Part shown: piece by piece, positions 27,188 through 52,986 of the stretch
Layout of the letters: every line of letters begins with the position of its first letter
Numbering within the stretch: the first letter of the stretch is position 1
Assembly: GCF_014334335.1 (NCBI RefSeq)
Contig: NZ_JACSEU010000001.1
Coordinates: forward strand, 744,001 to 808,000
Reading direction: 5' to 3'
DNA: 64,000 bases
Source of the DNA: Treponema sp. Marseille-Q3903
GTDB lineage: Bacteria; Spirochaetota; Spirochaetia; Treponematales; Treponemataceae
The notes under the pieces: generated by a model
Seen by the model: the letters and a program-made list of their open reading frames with translations, nothing else
Told to the model about the DNA's origin: nothing
Database searches by the model: none
Made by a program: the position numbers and the translations under genes

Positions 27188-27281
27188 ATTTTCATTTGAC
27201 TTATGCCAGATGTTTATATATGATTTTAACATTGTTGCAACGTCCTTTCGTTTTCAGCTATAAAATTTTCAGGTGTACTCG

Positions 27282-29009
27282 ATGAAAAAATATTTTTCCT
27301 TTCTTTTTACTGCAGTAGTTTTATTTACAACGATAAGTTGTTTCTATCAACCTTTGATATGTAATGTCTCTTATGATACGCAAGACAGCGGAAAACAATT
27401 TCCTGCCATCAGTGTAAGTTACGGTTCAAAATTGACTGATGCGCAGCTTCCAAATCTTAGTGCGGACGGGAAACTTTTTTGCGGCTGGTACAAAGAAAGC
27501 GGATGCACAACAAAATGGAACAAAGACACCGACACAGTCACCAAAGATATAACGCTCTACGCAAAGTGGCAAAATGCGTCACCGCTTATTCCTCTCGTGC
27601 CGTCTACTGAAGTTTTTACTGTAACATTCAACACGCGCGGGCTTTCGGCTGCACCCTCAGAGATTAAAGTTGCAAACGGAGAGACGATTTCAACCATGCC
27701 GGCAAATCCTACTCATTTTACTTGGGACTTTGAAGGCTGGTACAAAGATAAAAAGAACACTCAAATGTGGGACACTGCGTCCGACAAGGTAACAAAAAAT
27801 ATTACGCTCTACACAAAATGGAAGCCGAAATCCATTGGTGAAACTGATTTATGGAAAAGCAAAACAGACCGCCCCGACGACTATTACAGAATCCCCGCAT
27901 TTGCTGAAACAAAAGACGGCACGCTGCTCGCTGTAACAGATTTGCGGTACAAACATGCGGCGGACGTTGGTGAATACGATGAGTGGGGCGGGTTTAGACC
28001 GTTTCACCCGCGACATATTCATAGAATTGATTTAATCTTAAAACGCTCTTTAGATTACGGCAAAAGTTGGTCTTCTCTCGACACTAATCTTACAAACGTT
28101 CCGGAAACGCCCGAATACGGATGCGGAGATGCCGCTATTGTAGCAGACAGAGATTCCGACGAAGTTCTTATCATTCATGTAAAAGGCAATGTACGCTATC
28201 AAGATGGCAAACAAAATGTCGCAATGTTGAAATCTTCCGACGGCGGGAACTCTTTTACTCCGACAGACATAACCGACCAAATATACGGAATGAACGCATC
28301 TTGGCAGCGTATGTTTGTTACGTCAGGGAAAATACACCAGTCCCGATTTGTTAAAGTCGATAAATACTACCGCATATACGCGGCGCCTTTGATTGGAGAT
28401 TTTGGCAATACTGTTATATATTCGGACGACTTCGGAGACACGTGGAAAGTGCTCGGCGGCGATGCAACAGTAAAGCCAATTCCATCTGGAGACGAGGCGA
28501 AAGTTGAAGAACTTCCCGACGGAAGAGTTATTCTTTCAAGCCGCTTCGGAAACGGAAGGTATATAAATATTTTTACCTACACAAACAAAAATACGGGAGA
28601 GGGAAATTGGGGAACAGCTTCTCACTTGCAGTTAGGAAACGACGGCGGAACAAACGGAGAACTTCTGATTGTGAAAGCGTGTGCGGTAAACGATAAAACA
28701 CCTGTTTATCTTGCATTGCAATCTATCCCTGCGGCAAGCGGTCGAAATAATGTAACAATATACTGGCGCACAATCACGGAGAACGTATCTCTTGATGAGT
28801 TTGTAACCGGCAGTGAATGGCGGCAATATCAAATCCATACCGGTTCAAGCGCATATTCAACGATGATTCAGCAAAAAGACGGACGAATCGGATTTTTATA
28901 TGAACACAATGCGAAAAGTTCTCCTGCCGGTTACGACATTTGCTACAAAAGTCTCACGATAAGTGATATCACCGGCGAGCAATACGAAGCTGCGTTTTTG
29001 ACACAATGA
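27282..29009 (+). CDS. Exo-sialidase lipoprotein (GH33) with InlB-type repeats
   Basis: A 575-aa lipoprotein with lipobox TISC. Two Listeria-Bacteroides (InlB B-type) repeats follow, each ending like FCGWYKESGCTTKW and ITLYAKW, at about residues 30-95 and 110-180. The catalytic domain from about 195 has the YYRIP Arg motif and Asp boxes SLDYGKSW, SSDGGNSF and SDDFGDTW, with GRIGFLYE near the end as the nucleophile region. GH33 enzymes remove terminal sialic acid from host glycans. ATG 27282 has AGG 8 nt upstream; a GTG 9 nt earlier is less likely. With the IdeS-like protease it points to a host-associated lifestyle. Confidence 0.88.
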   Translation: MKKYFSFLFTAVVLFTTISCFYQPLICNVSYDTQDSGKQFPAISVSYGSKLTDAQLPNLSADGKLFCGWYKESGCTTKWNKDTDTVTKDITLYAKWQNASPLIPLVPSTEVFTVTFNTRGLSAAPSEIKVANGETISTMPANPTHFTWDFEGWYKDKKNTQMWDTASDKVTKNITLYTKWKPKSIGETDLWKSKTDRPDDYYRIPAFAETKDGTLLAVTDLRYKHAADVGEYDEWGGFRPFHPRHIHRIDLILKRSLDYGKSWSSLDTNLTNVPETPEYGCGDAAIVADRDSDEVLIIHVKGNVRYQDGKQNVAMLKSSDGGNSFTPTDITDQIYGMNASWQRMFVTSGKIHQSRFVKVDKYYRIYAAPLIGDFGNTVIYSDDFGDTWKVLGGDATVKPIPSGDEAKVEELPDGRVILSSRFGNGRYINIFTYTNKNTGEGNWGTASHLQLGNDGGTNGELLIVKACAVNDKTPVYLALQSIPAASGRNNVTIYWRTITENVSLDEFVTGSEWRQYQIHTGSSAYSTMIQQKDGRIGFLYEHNAKSSPAGYDICYKSLTISDITGEQYEAAFLTQ

Positions 29010-29058: not shown

Positions 29059-31797
29059 ATGTCACATTTTCTTTACACAATCATAATTTATCCGCTGTAT
29101 GCGCTGATTGAATGTATCTTTTCGCTTTTCAGCAAAATTACCGGAAACACAGGAATTTCTGTCATCGGGGTCAGTATCGGTGTTACTCTTTTTTGCCTGC
29201 CGTTGTATGCTGTTGCGGAAAAGTTACAGGAAGCGGAGCGCAAAAAACAAAAATCAATGCAGCCTATGCTCGAGAGGATTAAAGCGTCGTTTACCGGCGA
29301 CGAGCGCTATATGATGACGACAGCTTATTACAAAGAATGCCGTTACAATCCTGTGATGGCGCTGCGTTCTATATTCGGGCTTTTGATTCAGATTCCGTTT
29401 TTCATCGCCGCATATACATTTTTGTCGCACTTGCCATCTCTAAAAGGAGCTTCATTTTTATTTATCAAAGATATGGGAGCTCAGGATGCGTTGTTTAAAA
29501 TCGGCAGTTTTCCCGTAAATGTTCTCCCGATCGCTATGACTTTGATAAATATTGTCTCAGGCATAATCTACACGAAAGGTTTAATGCTCAAAGATAAACT
29601 ACAAGTCTTTGTTACAGCTCTTGTTTTTCTTGTGATTTTGTATCCGTCTCCCGCAGGTCTTGTACTTTACTGGACGATGAATAACGTCTTCAGTATGGTA
29701 AAAAACATTTTTTATAAACTTAAAAATCCTCTAAAAGTTTTTTGGATTTGCACGTGCGTTGGAGCGGTACTTTCCGCTGTGTATATTTTGTTTGTTTTTT
29801 CTTCAAAGATGCAGTACAAAGTTGTTTTCTTGTTGGGAGCTGTGTTAATCATTTTCTTGCCGCAGGTTGTGAAAGCTGTTCAAAAACTGCTTGACGGAAC
29901 GCTTTCTTGTATTGTTGAAAATGCAAGGGTTCGCCATACGTTGTATCTTGTTTCGTGTGGTGTGCTGTTTTTACTTTCAGGTACAGTGATACCGTCGTCT
30001 CTTATCGCATCTTCTCCAGCCGAGTTCGCAGGAATCGGTGAGCATGCAAATCCGTTGTATTTTATTGGAAATACAGGATTGCAAGCTGCGGGAATTTTCT
30101 TATTTTGGGCACCTTGTGTTTACTTTTTGTTCGGGAAAAAAGTTCAGACTGTTCTTGCATTTGTAATGACTGCTTTCGTGTATTGTGCGCTAGCCAATTC
30201 GTATATTTTTATGCTCAGCTATGGAGATGTGTCATCGTCTCTTTCGTTTTTGAATGCTACCGATTTTAAGGTGATTTCGTTCCTGTCTCTTGTCAATGTT
30301 TTTGTCCTAATTGCGTTGTTCTGTGCACTGCCGTTTTTTATAAAATTGAGAAATGCTAAGGTTTTAATATCTCTTTCTTCGATTTTTGCGCTTGCGCTTG
30401 GAGCTGTGTCTATTGCAAACATATTTTCGATTTCAAAAGCATACTCCGAATACAAAAAAGCAGGTAATGCACAGATATCTGCTTCTATTGAGCCGATTTT
30501 TCATCTTTCAAAAAATCATCAAAACGTAGTGCTTTTTATGTTTGACCGCGCTCAAAGTCAATATATCGACGAAATGTTTAATGAAGATCCATCTCTTTAC
30601 GAAAAATACAGCGGCTTTGTTTTTTACAATAATGTCGTTTCTTTTAACGGACACACTCTTCAAGGAGCGCCGGGATTGTACGGCGGTTACGAATATACAC
30701 CGCTTGAAATGAACCGCCGCTCAGATGTTCCGCTCGTCAAAAAAAATAATGAAGCTCTTTTGATGTTGCCGCGTATTTTTACCGAGCAAAAAGGATTTTC
30801 AGCAGCAATAACAGACCCTTCGTGGGGAAACTATGCAGGATTTTGCGATTTGAGTTTTATCAGTCCGTTCCCTAAAATCAACGGTTACCAGACCATCGGG
30901 CGCTATTCGGCGTTGTGGAAAAAAGAGCACTGGACGGAGGGTGGCATTGGAGACGATGGAAAAATTCTTGAACGCAATCTTTTGTTTTTCAGTTTTTTTA
31001 GACAGTCGCCGATTGCACTGCGTCAAATGCTTTATAAAAAAGGGACGTACTGGAGTTCTGATTCAGAATCTGGCAACGTAAAAATCGTTCTAGACAATTA
31101 TTCTGCGCTCGATTATTTGAAGCGGCTGACATCTATCTCCGATACTGAAAACGGTTCTTATGTCTGTATGGTTAATGAGCTTACTCATGAAAATCTTTTA
31201 TTACAGGCACCTGATTATATTCCTGTAAAAAAAGTCACGAATAAAGGAACTTCAAAATACAAAGAAAACCTTGATTATCACACGCAGATTGCAGCGTTAA
31301 AAATGCTAGGCTCGTGGCTTGATTTCTTGAAGGAAAACGGCATTTACGATAATACAAGAATTGTCATCGTTTCCGACCACGGCTGCAATGGGTATGAAGA
31401 TGATATTGAGCCTGATGCCGAGCTTGATTCACAAATTGCCGGAGGAAAATACGAAGGGCGAGGGCATTATCATCCATTGCTTTTATTTAAAGACTTCAAT
31501 GCGTCAGGAAAGCTTATCGAAGATGATACGTTTATGACAAATACCGACACTCCGAGCCTTCTGCTAAAAGGACTTGTTGAAAATCCTGTAAATCCGTTTA
31601 CGGGCAAGATAGTCCCGCTTGATACGCATGCGCTGAAAAAAGACGGTGTTATCATTTCTATAAGCGACCGACATCAGCCTGCTATGAACGGTAAATACAA
31701 ATTCAATATTCCTTATTCGCACTGGTGGAAGGTAAAAGACAATATTTTTAAGGCTTCCAGCTGGAGCCGTCCAACAGAAAAGGAGATTCAACAATGA
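29059..31797 (+). CDS. YidC/Oxa1 domain fused to an alkaline-phosphatase-superfamily (sulfatase-like) domain
   Basis: A 912-aa membrane protein. Residues 1-235 are a YidC/Oxa1 insertase domain with Arg103 in the conserved membrane groove (YNPVMALRSIFGLLIQIPFF) and SPAGLVLYWTMNNVFS. Residues 240-480 add several membrane spans. From about 490 to 870 there is a sulfatase/phosphotransferase domain: NVVLFMFDRAQ with metal ligand Asp496, candidate nucleophile Thr533, VIVSDHG (Asp773, His774) and GRGHYHP (His803, His805). Such domains move phosphoglycerol or phosphoethanolamine groups outside the membrane. The stop overlaps the next start (ATGA). Inference: it transfers or remodels a phospho-substituent on a surface glycolipid. 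The role of the YidC part is unknown. Confidence 0.85.
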   Translation: MSHFLYTIIIYPLYALIECIFSLFSKITGNTGISVIGVSIGVTLFCLPLYAVAEKLQEAERKKQKSMQPMLERIKASFTGDERYMMTTAYYKECRYNPVMALRSIFGLLIQIPFFIAAYTFLSHLPSLKGASFLFIKDMGAQDALFKIGSFPVNVLPIAMTLINIVSGIIYTKGLMLKDKLQVFVTALVFLVILYPSPAGLVLYWTMNNVFSMVKNIFYKLKNPLKVFWICTCVGAVLSAVYILFVFSSKMQYKVVFLLGAVLIIFLPQVVKAVQKLLDGTLSCIVENARVRHTLYLVSCGVLFLLSGTVIPSSLIASSPAEFAGIGEHANPLYFIGNTGLQAAGIFLFWAPCVYFLFGKKVQTVLAFVMTAFVYCALANSYIFMLSYGDVSSSLSFLNATDFKVISFLSLVNVFVLIALFCALPFFIKLRNAKVLISLSSIFALALGAVSIANIFSISKAYSEYKKAGNAQISASIEPIFHLSKNHQNVVLFMFDRAQSQYIDEMFNEDPSLYEKYSGFVFYNNVVSFNGHTLQGAPGLYGGYEYTPLEMNRRSDVPLVKKNNEALLMLPRIFTEQKGFSAAITDPSWGNYAGFCDLSFISPFPKINGYQTIGRYSALWKKEHWTEGGIGDDGKILERNLLFFSFFRQSPIALRQMLYKKGTYWSSDSESGNVKIVLDNYSALDYLKRLTSISDTENGSYVCMVNELTHENLLLQAPDYIPVKKVTNKGTSKYKENLDYHTQIAALKMLGSWLDFLKENGIYDNTRIVIVSDHGCNGYEDDIEPDAELDSQIAGGKYEGRGHYHPLLLFKDFNASGKLIEDDTFMTNTDTPSLLLKGLVENPVNPFTGKIVPLDTHALKKDGVIISISDRHQPAMNGKYKFNIPYSHWWKVKDNIFKASSWSRPTEKEIQQ

Positions 31798-33044
31798 CCC
31801 AACCGTTTTTATATATCGACCCGGGAACGGGCAGCATGCTCTTTTCGATTCTTATCGGAGCGGCTGCAACTCTGTTCTTTTTGAGCAGAGCGGTACTTTT
31901 AAAATTCAAAGTGTTTTTATCAGGCAAAAAAAGCGGTATTGATACGACAGATGCTACGTTAAAAAAATATGTCGTTTATGTTGAAGGGAAACAGTACAGA
32001 AATATTTTTAAGCCGATTGCCGACGAATTTGAAAAACGGAAAATACCTTTGACTTATTACACTTCTGCAAAAGATGACGCAGTATTCGACGAGAAATATG
32101 AATTTGTAAAGCCTGAGTTTATCGGGGAAGGCAATGCGGCGTTTGCGCGCCTCAATATGATTTCTGCCGGAGTTGTTTTGATGACGACGCCTGGTCTGAA
32201 CGTCTATCAGATGAAGAGAAGCCGAAACGTAAAGCATTATTCTCACGTCTTACATGCTGTAAGCGACGCGACGATGTACCGCCTGTTCGGAATCGATTTT
32301 TTTGATTCTGTGCTTTTGTCCGGCGACTATCAAAAAAAAGACATACGAGCGCTTGAAAAAAAACGCGCTATTAATGAAAAAGAGCTTGTAACTGTCGGAT
32401 GTCCTTATTTGGACGTTCTCAAAGAGCGCATGGCGTCCATTCCACAAGAGGAAAATCACGTTTTCACTGTTCTCGTCTCACCGTCGTGGGGAAAAAGCGC
32501 GCTTCTTTTGCGCTACGGCGAAAAGCTTCTTGACCCGCTTGCGGCTACAGGCTGGCGCATTATCGTCCGTCCGCACCCGCAGTCGAAAAAGTCTGAAAGC
32601 GCGATGCTCGAAAAACTCACCGAAAAATATAAAAATACAGCGAATGTCGAATGGGACTACGAGCGCGACAATATTTATTCGATGAAAAAAGCCGACATTA
32701 TGATTTCAGATTTTTCAGGTATAATTTACGATTACGCATTTTTGTGTGATAAACCTGTCATGTACGTCAACGCTGACTTGGACTTACGCCCCTACGATGC
32801 ATACGACCTTGAAGACAACGGCAAAAAAATTTGGCAGTTTGAAACGCTCAAAAAAATCGGCGTGGAATTGAAAGAAGAGCATTTTTCTGATATAAAAAAC
32901 GTGATTATGCAGGCAGGAGACAGTGCGGAACTTGCAGCTGCTCGAAAAGCCGCAAAAGCAGAAGCGTGGCAGAACGAGGGAAGAGCAGGCGAGGCGATTG
33001 CGGACTTTATGATCGATACGCTGCGATACGATGAACCTCGATGA
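31794..33044 (+). CDS. CDP-glycerol glycerophosphotransferase-like (TagB/TagF) protein
   Basis: A 416-aa protein with one N-terminal membrane anchor (about residues 10-35) and a GT-B-like catalytic domain of the CDP-glycerol:glycerophosphotransferase family: VKHYSHVLHAVSD, VLVSPSWGKSA, IIVRPHPQSKK and MISDFSGIIYDYAFL. Family enzymes use CDP-activated donors to add glycerol or ribitol phosphate to polymers. Here the donor may instead be the CDP compound made by the next gene. It is translationally coupled to the YidC fusion. Confidence 0.88.
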   Translation: MTQPFLYIDPGTGSMLFSILIGAAATLFFLSRAVLLKFKVFLSGKKSGIDTTDATLKKYVVYVEGKQYRNIFKPIADEFEKRKIPLTYYTSAKDDAVFDEKYEFVKPEFIGEGNAAFARLNMISAGVVLMTTPGLNVYQMKRSRNVKHYSHVLHAVSDATMYRLFGIDFFDSVLLSGDYQKKDIRALEKKRAINEKELVTVGCPYLDVLKERMASIPQEENHVFTVLVSPSWGKSALLLRYGEKLLDPLAATGWRIIVRPHPQSKKSESAMLEKLTEKYKNTANVEWDYERDNIYSMKKADIMISDFSGIIYDYAFLCDKPVMYVNADLDLRPYDAYDLEDNGKKIWQFETLKKIGVELKEEHFSDIKNVIMQAGDSAELAAARKAAKAEAWQNEGRAGEAIADFMIDTLRYDEPR

Positions 33045-33132
33045 ATCGCTTGAACGGCGAAAAATGATGATAAGACAGCTGCTGTAAATCAGCGGACTGC
33101 CATATATACTTTTATAAAAACAGGAGAAATAT

Positions 33133-34959
33133 ATGCAGGCAATTATTCTGGCTGCGGGAATGGGAAAGCGGCTTAAATCTTATACGAAAGACGCTACAAA
33201 GTGCATGGTCAAAGTCAACGGAAAAACATTGATTGAATATACGATAGAGGCACTTACCGCAAACAAAATCGAGCGGCTTGTCGTCGTTGTCGGCTATAAA
33301 GGCGCACTTTTAAAAGATTTTATCGCATCAAAATTTAATGCGGAAAATCTAAACGGCATGAAAATCGACTACATCGAAAATCCTGTGTACGATACGACGA
33401 ATAATATTTATTCGCTGTTTCTTGCCGGAAGCGAGATGGCAAAAGACGATACGATTTTGCTTGAAAGCGATTTGATTTTTAAGCCTGAAATATTACAGTC
33501 GCTCATCGCCTCTCCCGACAAAAACCTTGCGGTTGTCTCTCCTTTTGAGGCATGGATGGACGGTACCTGCACGCTTCTTGACGAAAATCGCTGTATAACG
33601 GGAATGCTCGATAAAGTCCGCTTTAATTGGGCTGACACTGAGCATTATTATAAAACAGTTAACATTTATAAATTTTCCAAAGAGTTTTCCGAGCAGTATT
33701 ATCTGCCTTTCCTTGACGCATATCAAAAATCTTTCGGTAAAAACGAATATTACGAACAAGTCTTGAAAGTCATTTCGTTTTTATCGTCGTCATCACTAAA
33801 AGGACTTGTCGTAAGCGGCAGCGACTGGTACGAAATCGATGATCCGGCAGACCTTGCGATTGCGGAAGACCGCTTCAAAACGGGAATCGAAAAGTTGCAC
33901 AGCCTTGAAAAACGATACGGCGGCTACTGGCGTTTCCCGCAGATGAAAGATTTTTGTTACCTTGTAAATCCGTATTTTCCACCGAAAAAACTTGTAAGCG
34001 AAATGAAAGCGAATTTCCACGTCCTCATTACAGAATACCCGAGCGGAGCCGCCCAGCAAAGTCTCCTTGCGTCAAAAATATTCAACATCATGCCGGAGCA
34101 TATCGTCGTTGGAAACGGAGCGGCGGAACTTATTTCTTCTCTTGCAAAATATGTTGAAGGCAAAGTTGCAATTCCATTTCCGACGTTCAATGAATATCCG
34201 GAACGATTTACGCACGCGGAAGTTGTCCCTGTCCCGACCAATAGAGAAACATTTGTTTATTCGGTAGACGATATTTTAAAAACCGTGCGACAAACTGGTG
34301 CAAAGACAGTCCTTTTAATCAATCCTGATAATCCGACCGGCAATTTCTTAAAAAAAGGCGAAGTTCTTCATTTGTGTGAAGAATTAAAAAAGGACAACGT
34401 AACGATTATCTTTGACGAATCGTTTATCGACTTTGCGGATAAGGCGATACGCTACACGCTGCTCGACGAAGAAATTTTAAACGAATATCCGAATCTCATC
34501 GTCGTAAAATCGATCAGCAAAAGTTACGGTGTTCCGGGGCTCAGACTCGGCATTCTCGCTTCTTCCGACCCGGCGTATATTTCTCGTATTCGGAAAACGA
34601 ATGCCATCTGGAACATCAATTCGTTCGGTGAATATTTTTTGCAAATCTACGACAAGTACAACAAAACTTACGCGGTTGCTTGCGATGCTATTGCAGAAGA
34701 ACGCAGCAGGTTTATAAAAAGGCTTTCAGAAATTGAAGGCATTAAGGTTTTTCCGAGTGAGGCAAATTATGTTTTGTGCCGCCTAAACGGTATAAAAGCC
34801 GGAGAGCTCACAGTTTCTCTGCTTGAAAAATACAATATTTTTATCAAAGACCTTTCTTCAAAAAAAGGTTTTGAAAGCGGCGGCTATATCCGCCTTGCAG
34901 TTAGGAACAAAGAAGACAATGATGCGCTCATTGCGGCATTAAAAGATATTTTAGGTTGA
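33133..34959 (+). CDS. Bifunctional LicC/PntC-type cytidylyltransferase and PLP aminotransferase
   Basis: A 608-aa fusion. Residues 1-240 are a LicC-like nucleotidyltransferase (IILAAGMGKRLKSYTKDATK, YDTTNNIYSL, LLESDLIF). Residues 255-608 are a fold-type I aminotransferase (INPDNPTGN; PLP Lys463 in SKSYGVPGLRLG). PntC of Treponema denticola is known to couple cytidylyltransferase and aminotransferase activities for 2-aminoethylphosphonate. No PEP mutase is in this window, so phosphocholine, phosphoethanolamine or another amino-alcohol phosphate is equally possible. CAGGAGA precedes ATG. It closes the operon 88 nt after the transferase gene. Confidence 0.85.
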   Translation: MQAIILAAGMGKRLKSYTKDATKCMVKVNGKTLIEYTIEALTANKIERLVVVVGYKGALLKDFIASKFNAENLNGMKIDYIENPVYDTTNNIYSLFLAGSEMAKDDTILLESDLIFKPEILQSLIASPDKNLAVVSPFEAWMDGTCTLLDENRCITGMLDKVRFNWADTEHYYKTVNIYKFSKEFSEQYYLPFLDAYQKSFGKNEYYEQVLKVISFLSSSSLKGLVVSGSDWYEIDDPADLAIAEDRFKTGIEKLHSLEKRYGGYWRFPQMKDFCYLVNPYFPPKKLVSEMKANFHVLITEYPSGAAQQSLLASKIFNIMPEHIVVGNGAAELISSLAKYVEGKVAIPFPTFNEYPERFTHAEVVPVPTNRETFVYSVDDILKTVRQTGAKTVLLINPDNPTGNFLKKGEVLHLCEELKKDNVTIIFDESFIDFADKAIRYTLLDEEILNEYPNLIVVKSISKSYGVPGLRLGILASSDPAYISRIRKTNAIWNINSFGEYFLQIYDKYNKTYAVACDAIAEERSRFIKRLSEIEGIKVFPSEANYVLCRLNGIKAGELTVSLLEKYNIFIKDLSSKKGFESGGYIRLAVRNKEDNDALIAALKDILG

Positions 34960-51237: not shown

Positions 51238-51371
51238 AATAAGAGGGAAATGTCTATAAAACTCTGCAAACCAAGCCTAATATGATGTGAAAAATGATGC
51301 GAAATATTGCAAATAATTTTTTCTTTGTATATTATAAGGACATTGTTTTTTCAACGTGTTTTGAAAATGCA

Positions 51372-51475
51372 ATTCTCTGGAGAGTTCTCACATTCCTGTG
51401 GGACGCCGAAGGGTTAAGGGAAGATGTTCATATTATATGAAAGCTTCCCGATATCTCAGGCATAAGGGACGGAGC
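51372..51475 (+). ncRNA. Glycine riboswitch aptamer
   Basis: The conserved core is present in order: CTGGAGAG (51377-51384), GCCGAAGGG (51405-51413), the CTTCCC arm matching GGGAAG, TCTCAGGCATAAGGGAC (51454-51470), and the closing CUCU/GGAG pairing. A single complete aptamer is visible. It sits directly upstream of an alanine/glycine symporter, the classic target. Confidence 0.88.
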
Positions 51476-51505
51476 TAAAGAAAAAGTTCTATTCTGCTCT
51501 TTGGG

Positions 51506-51554
51506 GAGTTTGTTCGGTTCATTCTTTGATATCGGCAAACTCTATTTCTTTTTT
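51506..51554 (+). terminator. Riboswitch expression platform
   Basis: GAGTTTG (51506-51512) pairs with CAAACTC (51536-51542), followed by TATTTCTTTTTT. The loop segment GATATCGG (51528-51535) is fully complementary to CCGATATC (51448-51455) in the aptamer, so the two structures can compete. Confidence 0.7.
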
Positions 51555-51567
51555 AAAGGACATGTTT

Positions 51568-52986
51568 ATGTTTGAAACAATCCTTAACACTATTGATGAC
51601 GTTGTTTGGGGAATCCCGACAATCGCTCTTATTCTTGTGACCGGAATAGTGATGACGGTCGCAGCTCGCGGTATTCAGTTTACAAAACTGAGACGTGCTT
51701 TTAAAAGTATTTTTAAAGAGAATGAAGGTAAAGGAGAGCTTTCTGGATTTTCCGCTCTTTGTACTGCACTGTCTGCAACGATTGGTACCGGTAACATCGT
51801 AGGTGTTGCTACTGCCATTCTTGCCGGTGGACCCGGTGCCCTTTTTTGGATGTGGATTGCCGCTCTGCTTGGAACAGCTACAAAGTATGCTGAATGTATG
51901 CTTGCTATTAAATACCGTGAAGTCAAGGAAGACGGTCATGTGCTTGGAGGACCATTCTATGTGATTGAAAAAGGTATGGGCAAAAACTGGAAATGGCTTG
52001 CCGTTTTGTTTGCAATTTTCGGAACTCTCGTAGGACTTTTCGGCATCGGTACATTCACACAGGTAAACGGTATTTGCGGCGCTGTTCAAAACGCATTCGA
52101 CCCTGAGAAAACTGCTGTTGCATTTACAATCGGTCAATATTCATATTCTTGGGCAACTGTGATTGCAGGTGCGATCATCACTGTCGGAGTTGCACTTGTA
52201 GTTATCGGCGGTCTTCAGCGAATCGCAAAAGTTGCAGAAAAAGTTGTTCCCGCTATGGCTATAATCTATGTATTTCTCGGTCTTTCGGTTATAATCATGA
52301 ACGCTTCTAAAGTTCCGGCTGCTTTTGCTCTGATATTCAAAGGTGCATTTGGGTTTGATTCGGGCATTAAAGCAATTTCAGGTGCGGCTGCGGGAACAAT
52401 CATCCGCATGGCGATGCAGAAAGGTATTGCTCGAGGTATTTTCTCGAACGAGGCAGGACTAGGATCGGCTCCAATCGCTGCATCGGCAGTCCAGACAAAC
52501 GAACATGTCGAACAAGGCTTAGTAAATATGACCGGAACTGTAATCGATACGTTGATAATCTGTACAATGACAGGGCTTTCAATTGTGCTATCAGGAATCG
52601 ATGTCTGGAACAGCGGTGCTACAGGGGCAGCACTTACCGCTAACGCATTTTCTGCAATGCTCGGTGGCGATGGTGTTTCTGTTCAGTTCTTGCTTATGAT
52701 TTGTCTTGTATTTTTTGCATTTACGACTATTCTCGGCTGGGACTACTATTCTGAAAAATGTCTTGAATATCTGTCAAACGGAAATATGACTGTCGTAAAA
52801 ATCTATCGTTGGCTTTATATTGCGGCAGTTGCGATTGGACCTTATATGACAATTTCCGCAGTTTGGACAATCGCCGATATCACAAACGGTTTGATGGCGA
52901 TTCCAAACTGTATATCTTTGATTGTTTTAAGCGGAATTGTCGCAAAAGAAACAAAAGATTATTTTAATAGAGTTCCTGTACTCTAA
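51568..52986 (+). CDS. Alanine/glycine:cation symporter (AGCS family)
   Basis: A 472-aa sodium-coupled amino-acid importer with about ten membrane spans. Family motifs are TALSATIGTGNIVGVATAI, then GGPGALFWMW, and GIARGIFSNEAGLGSAPIA. ATG 51568 lies 7 nt after AAAGGA; ATGs at 51562 and upstream are too close to or before the Shine-Dalgarno sequence. Control by the glycine riboswitch implies glycine as a substrate. As glycine can be toxic or a fuel, the switch may act in either direction. Confidence 0.93.
   Translation: MFETILNTIDDVVWGIPTIALILVTGIVMTVAARGIQFTKLRRAFKSIFKENEGKGELSGFSALCTALSATIGTGNIVGVATAILAGGPGALFWMWIAALLGTATKYAECMLAIKYREVKEDGHVLGGPFYVIEKGMGKNWKWLAVLFAIFGTLVGLFGIGTFTQVNGICGAVQNAFDPEKTAVAFTIGQYSYSWATVIAGAIITVGVALVVIGGLQRIAKVAEKVVPAMAIIYVFLGLSVIIMNASKVPAAFALIFKGAFGFDSGIKAISGAAAGTIIRMAMQKGIARGIFSNEAGLGSAPIAASAVQTNEHVEQGLVNMTGTVIDTLIICTMTGLSIVLSGIDVWNSGATGAALTANAFSAMLGGDGVSVQFLLMICLVFFAFTTILGWDYYSEKCLEYLSNGNMTVVKIYRWLYIAAVAIGPYMTISAVWTIADITNGLMAIPNCISLIVLSGIVAKETKDYFNRVPVL

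Follow-up and report, generated by a model that had tools for sequence, protein, structure and literature searches.

A three-gene cassette in Treponema joins a YidC–phosphatase fusion to a predicted CDP-headgroup pathway

The window, a stretch of 64,000 nucleotides from the genome of Treponema sp. Marseille-Q3903, contains three consecutive genes that may make, load and transfer a phospho-amino-alcohol headgroup for the decoration of an exported glycan. The chance that this reading is correct appears to us to be about even. What was computed is the architecture of the genes, their conserved sites and predicted topology, a near-obligate pairing of genes 1 and 2, and the exchange of the donor module that accompanies them. 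The single parts are already known, and their combination is in no paper that we found. Nothing describing the cassette was found in the available portions of the literature on YidC–phosphatase fusions, on YidC with phosphonate genes, on the 6OUX entry and on treponemal phosphoethanolamine glycolipids.

A preliminary description of this DNA had proposed the three-gene arrangement with its two fusions. The arrangement is real, as coordinates, domains and the ATGA overlap were all confirmed, and it is not due to chance. The wider proposal, in which a CDP-activated phospho-amino-alcohol is destined for an envelope glycan, agrees with sequence and context, and the preliminary interpretation as a whole is partly supported. 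The features are as follows.

29059..31797, + strand: gene 1 (FUS), a fusion of YidC, seven transmembrane (TM) helices and an alkaline-phosphatase-superfamily domain, 912 aa
29059..29724, + strand: YidC/Oxa1 domain of gene 1, aa 1-222, five TM helices
29725..30507, + strand: middle membrane region of gene 1, aa 223-483, seven predicted TM helices
30508..31797, + strand: predicted extracytoplasmic alkaline-phosphatase-fold domain of gene 1, aa 484-912, with D496, T533, H710, D773, H774 and K811
31794..31797, + strand: ATGA shared by the stop of gene 1 and the start of gene 2
31794..33044, + strand: gene 2 (GT2), a putative membrane-anchored TagB/F-like CDP-headgroup transferase, 416 aa (PF04464, 7.3e-10)
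33133..34959, + strand: gene 3, a predicted CDP-headgroup synthase fusing a nucleotidyltransferase with a PLP enzyme, 608 aa
33133..33867, + strand: LicC/PntC-like nucleotidyltransferase domain of gene 3, aa 1-245 (PF12804, 5e-13; PntC 6pd1, 4.7e-14; LicC 1jyk, 1e-12)
33883..34959, + strand: CobD-like PLP domain of gene 3, aa 251-608, a predicted phosphoserine/phosphothreonine decarboxylase (6oux_A, 5.1e-53; 1lc5_A, 9.1e-29)

In the proposed mechanism, the CobD-like domain of gene 3 would decarboxylate O-phospho-L-serine (phosphothreonine being less likely) to phosphoethanolamine (or aminopropanol phosphate), and the LicC-like domain would couple this product with CTP to yield CDP-ethanolamine (or CDP-aminopropanol). 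Strong homology suggests this first step. Gene 2, anchored at the cytoplasmic side of the membrane, would recognize the CDP-headgroup and load the phospho-headgroup onto a membrane carrier, which may be a lipid or a lipid-linked sugar; homology and the tree result given below point to this role. The outward phosphatase-fold domain of gene 1 would then take the phospho-headgroup off the carrier on Thr533 and give it to the glycan in an LtaS/EptA-like manner, while the altered YidC fold would hold, and perhaps flip, the loaded carrier. We infer this last step from the fold and the conserved site.

The YidC fusion had been called unusual, but it is in fact common. In Spirochaetota, 81 of 296 genomes have it at E<=1e-60, a count that includes the genome of the window and a few partial matches. 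In one Firmicutes class, 11 of 292 genomes have it, the chosen centre genome among them. The trio was sought in other treponemes and in Firmicutes, as the preliminary description had advised, and it occurs across spirochaetes and in some gut Firmicutes with varied donor modules. The same partners are present beyond the window's class at locus L204, from another spirochaete family, and at the Firmicutes loci L206, L208 and L209, in the last of which the CobD-type fusion adjoins gene 2 on the opposite strand.

Genes 1 and 2 are rarely found apart. Within 59 related genomes, the fusion is present in 32, gene 2 in 32 and both in 31 (Fisher p 1.8e-14, kinship uncorrected). Among loci selected for carrying the fusion, with near-duplicates retained, gene 2 comes immediately after the fusion in 56 cases, many with overlapping or near-touching frames (a 4-base overlap in 17/56 and a 1-base overlap in 9/56). 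Of 110 fusion loci, 24 have no gene 2 in the stretch covered, some of them at contig ends. Two to six fusions are present in 44 of the 110 loci, often with a single gene 2, which is not what would be expected of a simple one-to-one relay.

Gene 2 scores 38.8 bits with the TagB/F family of CDP-glycerol-type transferases (PF04464), for which the cut-off is 22.1. Its N-terminal YIDPGTG motif (31812-31832, + strand) is identical in 77/77 sequences, and one TM helix spans aa 18-36. The context of gene 2 points to donors that are CDP-headgroups other than CDP-glycerol.

The CDP-donor module beside genes 1 and 2 is exchanged among relatives. A recognizable module lies within four same-strand genes in 49 of the 77 distinct gene-2 rows, comprising 16 of the NT–PLP type 2, 13 of the PEP mutase/PntC type, 11 CobD-type fusions and 9 lone or shrunken NT genes. 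Each label denotes the nearest module: L038_14477 is labeled lone NT although a PEP mutase lies three genes further, L090 is labeled CobD-type despite a lost PLP lysine, and among the NT rows, L107 and L122 represent shrunken fusions. The other 28 rows have no donor module above thresholds; weaker matches occur in L137 and L145. Phosphonate versions of the cassette occur in relatives. At the Lachnospiraceae locus L149, an NT–PEP mutase fusion together with an Fe-alcohol dehydrogenase suggests that the headgroup is hydroxyethylphosphonate. The CobD-type fusion (13 of the 59 genomes) and PEP mutase above the cut-off (15) never occur together (hypergeometric p 0.013, kinship uncorrected). Donor modules can coexist, since a lone NT and a PEP mutase share one locus (L038, G004).

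The tree of gene 2 agrees with the headgroup module far better than the tree of gene 1 does. For the same 45 of the 49 labeled rows, the gene 2 tree requires 10 label changes (24.6 when shuffled), and the fusion tree requires 19 (24.7 when shuffled). A repeat with 41 rows gave 9 and 19 changes, respectively, and in none of 200 two-thirds subsamples did the fusion need as few changes as gene 2. The fusion tree retains some headgroup signal, as a count as low as 19 was reached in 0/200 shuffles. The window's own fusion clusters with five copies that adjoin a GDP-heptose-like module. A heptose acceptor, which these nearest copies suggest, is not claimed because a search of the window's genome at E<=1e-60, based on the NT–HAD gene of that module, gave no match.

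The phosphatase domain of gene 1 has a strictly conserved site. D496, T533 (the predicted nucleophile), H710, D773, H774 and K811 are identical in all 153 fusions compared, which are full-length members chosen on the requirement of a YidC domain, and the same six are invariant in a 62-row alignment that includes Firmicutes and other spirochaetes. Loss of the metal ligands in close relatives, which would have spoken against the preliminary description, was thus looked for and the site was intact throughout. A 5+7 TM topology with positive-inside loops predicts that this domain lies outside the cell, after 12 TM helices. In this order of parts, gene 1 resembles enzymes of the LtaS/EptA/OpgB type, and it has the alkaline-phosphatase fold, the Thr at the nucleophile position and Asp or His at the expected metal ligands. 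The last five TM helices of the middle region presumably occupy the place of the five-TM module of EptA/LtaS-type enzymes. Gene 1 differs from them by a full YidC fold and two extra TM helices ahead of this module, by an Asp as the first expected metal ligand where LtaS has Glu, and by very weak sequence similarity; with OpgB, the hhalign probability is 6.7% and the alignment is confined to the surroundings of the SDH motif. The middle region has no PDB match by profile search at E<=1, and among 18 members no Pfam family besides YidC and sulfatase/phosphodiesterase matches more than one. The fold comparison of gene 1 is dominated by the phosphatase domain and hence barely covers the fold of the middle region. 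Fold neighbors of the phosphatase domain include LtaS and EptC, and VIA-align places hydrolases slightly higher than both.

LtaS and EptC use phospholipids as donors, and their appearance among the fold neighbors favors an alternative reading with a similar donor for gene 1. Gene 2 might then, like LicD/TagF enzymes, act in the cytoplasm and decorate a lipid-linked glycan repeat itself, with export by an ordinary flippase. Gene 1 would be a separate LtaS/EptA-like enzyme that draws a phospho-group from bulk PE or PG and adds it to this glycan at additional positions, and its YidC part would be a mere membrane scaffold. We regard this alternative as possible, though on balance rather unlikely. 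If gene 1 recognizes the acceptor and draws on a shared lipid donor, then the poor tracking of the headgroup module by its tree (19 changes versus 10) is expected, as is the occurrence of multiple gene 1 copies beside one gene 2. However, a phospholipid donor alone leaves unexplained the near-inseparability of the fusion and gene 2 (31/32) with their frequent overlap, and also the retention of the YidC domain in the full-length members, even if that domain was required for their inclusion.

The preliminary description had allowed that the system either transfers or trims the headgroup. Of the two, trimming is the less likely because the nucleophile position is Thr and a further residue, His805, is present in only 48/153 fusions. 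It is improbable that the phosphatase domain is a hydrolase (a phosphodiesterase, phosphonate monoester hydrolase or sulfatase-like enzyme) that trims or recycles phospho-headgroups. Sulfatases and phosphonate monoester hydrolases use a Cys or Ser that is converted to formylglycine, whereas residue 533 is Thr in 153/153 fusions. Moreover, the domain is fused to the 12 predicted TM helices and adjoins a biosynthetic transferase.

The nucleotidyltransferase domain of gene 3 is LicC-like and is predicted to be a cytidylyltransferase. It scores 50 bits with PF12804 (cut-off 27), and the acidic residues D113, D236 and D237 are kept in 20/20 sequences. The PLP domain is CobD-like in the broad sense. 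Its closest relatives are 6oux_A, which we take to be a phosphoserine decarboxylase from Sulfurospirillum and whose structure entry is titled 'Threonine phosphate decarboxylase-like enzyme', and CobD itself (1lc5_A). With TIGR01140, the equivalog model for CobD L-Thr-P decarboxylase, the match of 187 bits (4.6e-55) falls below the cut-off of 290.55. The expected PLP lysine, K463 (34519-34521), was also checked for loss in close relatives; it is kept in 19/20 and missing in L090. The PLP domain belongs to PF00155 (class I/II, 8.9e-35), whereas PntC of the relative L035 belongs to PF00266. Thus, the cytidylyltransferase–aminotransferase fusion named earlier does join a nucleotidyltransferase to a PLP enzyme, but not to a PntC-type class V transaminase, the closest enzymes being phospho-amino-acid decarboxylases. 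The reaction is not settled, as the sequence is compatible with phosphoserine, with phosphothreonine or with an aminotransferase reaction.

A PEP mutase elsewhere in the genome had been suggested as a point to check, and the window's genome (G000, 98.66% complete) gave no match for it at E<=0.001. For this reason, the phosphonate reading was rejected for the window's copy, which is probably not a phosphonate pathway. Given the CobD-like PLP domain and the lack of a PEP mutase match, gene 3 would most likely convert phosphoserine (or phosphothreonine) into CDP-ethanolamine (or CDP-aminopropanol). A dedicated ethanolamine-headgroup route is not forced by a lack of PE, because the genome also encodes a phosphatidylserine decarboxylase. 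The presence of this decarboxylase is one of three observations that make it very unlikely that gene 3 supplies CDP-ethanolamine for PE, in a Kennedy-type route of general phospholipid synthesis, and is located here by chance. The others are that gene 3 lies directly after gene 2 in 10/11 CobD-type rows and that elsewhere it adjoins GDP-sugar genes (L157). Such a role would fit with gene 3 homologues that, within the stretch covered, lie apart from genes 1 and 2 (L155, L157, L158, L198, L199) and with the 44 of 59 relatives, some with incomplete genomes, in which no phosphatidylserine decarboxylase was seen.

The YidC part of gene 1 shares its fold, five TM helices and conserved Pro48 with YidC/Oxa1 insertases. 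It differs by its fused C-terminal module and by the positive charge of the hydrophilic groove, which is found in 0/153 fusions. Groove position 43 (29185-29187) is Thr in gene 1 and T, S or N in 153/153 fusions, whereas it is Lys in the canonical treponemal YidC and in all of the canonical YidCs aligned, which were 4 in number, a fifth locus (L066) having yielded no frame. Despite the retained fold and 5-TM topology, a working insertase for its own C-terminal half or for co-encoded membrane proteins is scarcely credible, as the groove charge is absent throughout and a separate canonical YidC of 589 aa is encoded in the same genome (L063).

With this charge lost, the YidC part could alternatively move nothing. 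That it may instead help in moving the product has in-vitro precedent for E. coli YidC in the available text of one report (PMC10491306). A tentative extension, which we consider possible but doubtful, is that a YidC fold was turned into a lipid flippase or scramblase and fused to its own transferase. Genes 1 and 2 would then be a device of general use that loads CDP-activated phospho- and phosphono-headgroups inside the cell, flips them and transfers them outside. Exchange of the donor module would reprogram this device, and multiplication of the fusion would diversify it toward different acceptor positions. The literature covered contained no system in which an insertase fold and a headgroup transferase are combined as proposed here.

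Several known systems share parts of the cassette. In Pnt phosphonate tailoring (Ppm/Ppd/PntC), exemplified by Treponema denticola Tde1415 (PMC6697681, available text), a nucleotidyltransferase–PLP fusion (6pd1) makes a CMP-activated two-carbon amino headgroup for the cell surface, as is predicted for gene 3, and Pnt-type modules directly adjoin genes 1 and 2 in relatives. The window's copy differs by its class I/II CobD-like domain, by the phosphate ester that is predicted in place of a phosphonate and by the missing PEP mutase match. The Pnt neighbors named in the same text are LicD-like phosphotransferases or glycosyltransferases; YidC, sulfatase and glycerophosphotransferase have 0 matches in it, and the use of the CMP-phosphonate is left to be deciphered. 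LicC/LicD phosphocholine decoration and TagB/F teichoic-acid transferases likewise involve CDP-donor synthesis and a PF04464 transferase. Here, however, the donor precursor is predicted to arise by decarboxylation within the same polypeptide, and the transferase is partnered by the YidC–phosphatase fusion. In Campylobacter, Cj1436 decarboxylates phosphoserine to ethanolamine phosphate within a surface-glycan locus. Its product amidates glucuronic acid, the enzyme is presented as a gene product in its own right, unlike the fused gene 3, and no CDP step of the kind proposed here is mentioned in the available text, which has 0 matches for CDP (PMC12409886).

The YidC–phosphatase fusion and the TagF-like transferase together constitute a widespread partner of CDP-headgroup and phosphonate modules for which no description was found. 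The cassette may also be a case of an insertase fold taken over for the handling of lipids. The donor module offers a way of predicting surface headgroups, and the cassette supplies a concrete gene set for commensal treponemes and rumen Firmicutes.

The window that holds the three genes spans G000:C1:744001-808000, in a genome of 2.51 Mb. Genes 1 and 2 share an ATGA overlap, and gene 3 is followed by a convergent gene.

Features of the locus, in window coordinates
27273-29009: BNR/sialidase-like gene, its product bearing Listeria-Bacteroides repeats; immediate upstream neighbor of gene 1, ending 49 bases before the gene 1 start
29059-31797, +: gene 1, fusion of YidC, seven TM segments and an alkaline-phosphatase-fold domain
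31794-33044, +: gene 2, TagB/F-like predicted CDP-headgroup transferase
33133-34959, +: gene 3, LicC/PntC-like nucleotidyltransferase (NT) fused to a CobD-like PLP domain

The same genome carries, some 15 kb upstream of where the window begins, a 107-aa frame (L051:4715-5038, +) that shares 45% identity with residues 21-96 of the gene 1 fusion and looks like the remnant of another YidC-phosphatase copy that has decayed. Elsewhere in the window, a glycine riboswitch aptamer (51367-51482) precedes a sodium:alanine symporter-family gene (51526-52986).

Gene 2 has a single predicted TM segment, at its N-terminus, and exceeds the Pfam cut-off for PF04464; its N-terminal motif YIDPGTG is identical in 77 of 77 sequences. 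The PDB entries closest to the NT domain of gene 3 are PntC (6pd1, 4.7e-14), 4jd0 and LicC (1jyk, 1e-12). For the PLP domain, the top match is 6oux_A, 'Threonine phosphate decarboxylase-like enzyme' (5.1e-53), followed by 3ftb (named histidinol-phosphate aminotransferase) and then CobD (1lc5_A, 9.1e-29). In an alignment of the window's gene 3 with 19 sequences that share 47-73% identity with it, all 20 have D113, D236 and D237, and 19 have K463.

Of 296 Spirochaetota genomes sampled, 81 (the window's own among them) have a hit to the fusion profile at E<=1e-60, although a few of these matches are partial (the best in G299 is a 237-aa YidC-only frame) and G091, G138, G218 and G293 were counted uninspected. 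The profile also matches 11 of 292 genomes in the class of Ruminococcaceae bacterium AB4001 (G331, counted here; locus L148). Scanning genome contigs for the fusion yielded at least 77 distinct loci, mostly from Treponema MAGs; those listed include Treponema bryantii B25 and five from Firmicutes groups (L148, L149, L151, L152 and L154). In another spirochaete family, f26, single genomes (G144, with L203 and L204, and its kin) hold as many as five match stretches when the pieces of a split match are counted separately; in some frames of ∼1000 aa, additional sequence separates the YidC match from the TM-phosphatase match. In Clostridiales locus L152, six tandem fusion copies (one of 817 aa) surround one gene 2, and a further copy is split into separate YidC and phosphatase frames.

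Genes 1 and 2 are closely paired. Among 59 related genomes, the fusion occurs in 32, gene 2 in 32 and both in 31 (Fisher p 1.8e-14, with kinship and physical linkage ignored). The exceptions are G024, with the fusion only, and G011, whose gene 2 is a fragment lying where a contig ends.

Gene 2 commonly neighbors a predicted CDP-headgroup-making (donor) module. Each of 77 distinct gene 2 rows (at least 380 aa), from loci chosen for fusion presence, was labelled by the nearest such module within four same-strand genes; representative modules were named by Pfam. The labels were NT-PLP type 2 (16), PEP mutase/PntC (13), CobD-type fusion (11), lone NT (9, two being shrunken fusions) and none above thresholds (28). 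Outside the window's class, the association is repeated at L204, L206, L208 and L209, the last with its CobD-type fusion on the opposite strand. L149 has an NT-PEP mutase fusion accompanied by an Fe-alcohol dehydrogenase, and in L148 the second gene downstream of the second fusion belongs to the LCP family. None of the 59 genomes has both the CobD-type fusion, present in 13 (in one as a fragment where a contig ends), and a PEP mutase that exceeds the cut-off, present in 15 (p 0.013, kinship ignored); in the window's genus (36 genomes), the counts are 9 and 12 (exclusivity p 0.014). Locus L038 combines a lone NT with PEP mutase.

Quick trees, supported by SH-aLRT only, were compared over an identical 45 of the 49 labelled rows, the other four having no full fusion nearby on the strand. 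Donor labels change 10 times on the gene 2 tree (shuffled mean 24.6) and 19 times on the gene 1 fusion tree (shuffled mean 24.7; as low in 0 of 200 shuffles). The CobD-type group alone changes 6 times on the gene 2 tree and 10 times on the fusion tree, where 10.0 is the shuffled value and clustering is thus at chance level. Omitting long row L097 and distant pairs leaves 41 rows, on which gene 2 needs 9 changes and the fusion 19; when two-thirds of the rows were drawn at random, the fusion did as well as gene 2 in 0 of 200 draws. Because donor label tracks the gene 2 tree more closely, we read gene 2 as the predicted headgroup-specific transferase, whereas the fusion probably recognizes the acceptor or carrier. 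This agrees with the presence of two to six fusions in 44 of 110 loci, often alongside a single gene 2.

A GDP-heptose-like module (NT-HAD, SIS, GHMP kinase) adjoins part of the fusion copies: of 145 rows, 24 have a module member within two same-strand genes (for example L031, L044, L078-L082, L092, L109, L114, L119, L130, L140 and L153). On the fusion tree, rows with this label cluster, needing 14 changes against 22.5 when shuffled.

The pairing, donor-module and tree results lead us to a model in which gene 3 would make a CDP donor, gene 2 would load a membrane carrier and gene 1 would transfer the headgroup outside. The main rival, that gene 1 is a conventional headgroup transferase drawing on bulk phospholipid, accommodates the tree result about equally well but does not account for the near-obligate, often overlapped pairing of genes 1 and 2. 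The least supported step of the make-load-transfer model is that the YidC fold would flip the loaded lipid; it rests on a report of in-vitro lipid scrambling by the purified YidC of E. coli (PMC10491306). Loss of groove charge in the YidC part may reflect a cargo switch from peptide to lipid, or a transport role gone altogether. No description of the fusion or the three-gene set was found in open-licence PMC literature, and the text of the PntC paper (PMC6697681) mentions neither YidC, sulfatase nor glycerophosphotransferase. The cassette's parts are of already known kinds; that it is something categorically new is possible but less likely than not.

In some relatives, the PLP half of gene 3 is lost stepwise, from its lysine (L090) to a shrunken domain (L107, L122) to NT alone (L038, L039, L057), while the NT half and operon position persist. 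This pattern fits a PLP half that would be the source of the NT half's substrate and dispensable once that substrate comes from elsewhere. It further implies that lineages with a decayed PLP half may use a different headgroup.
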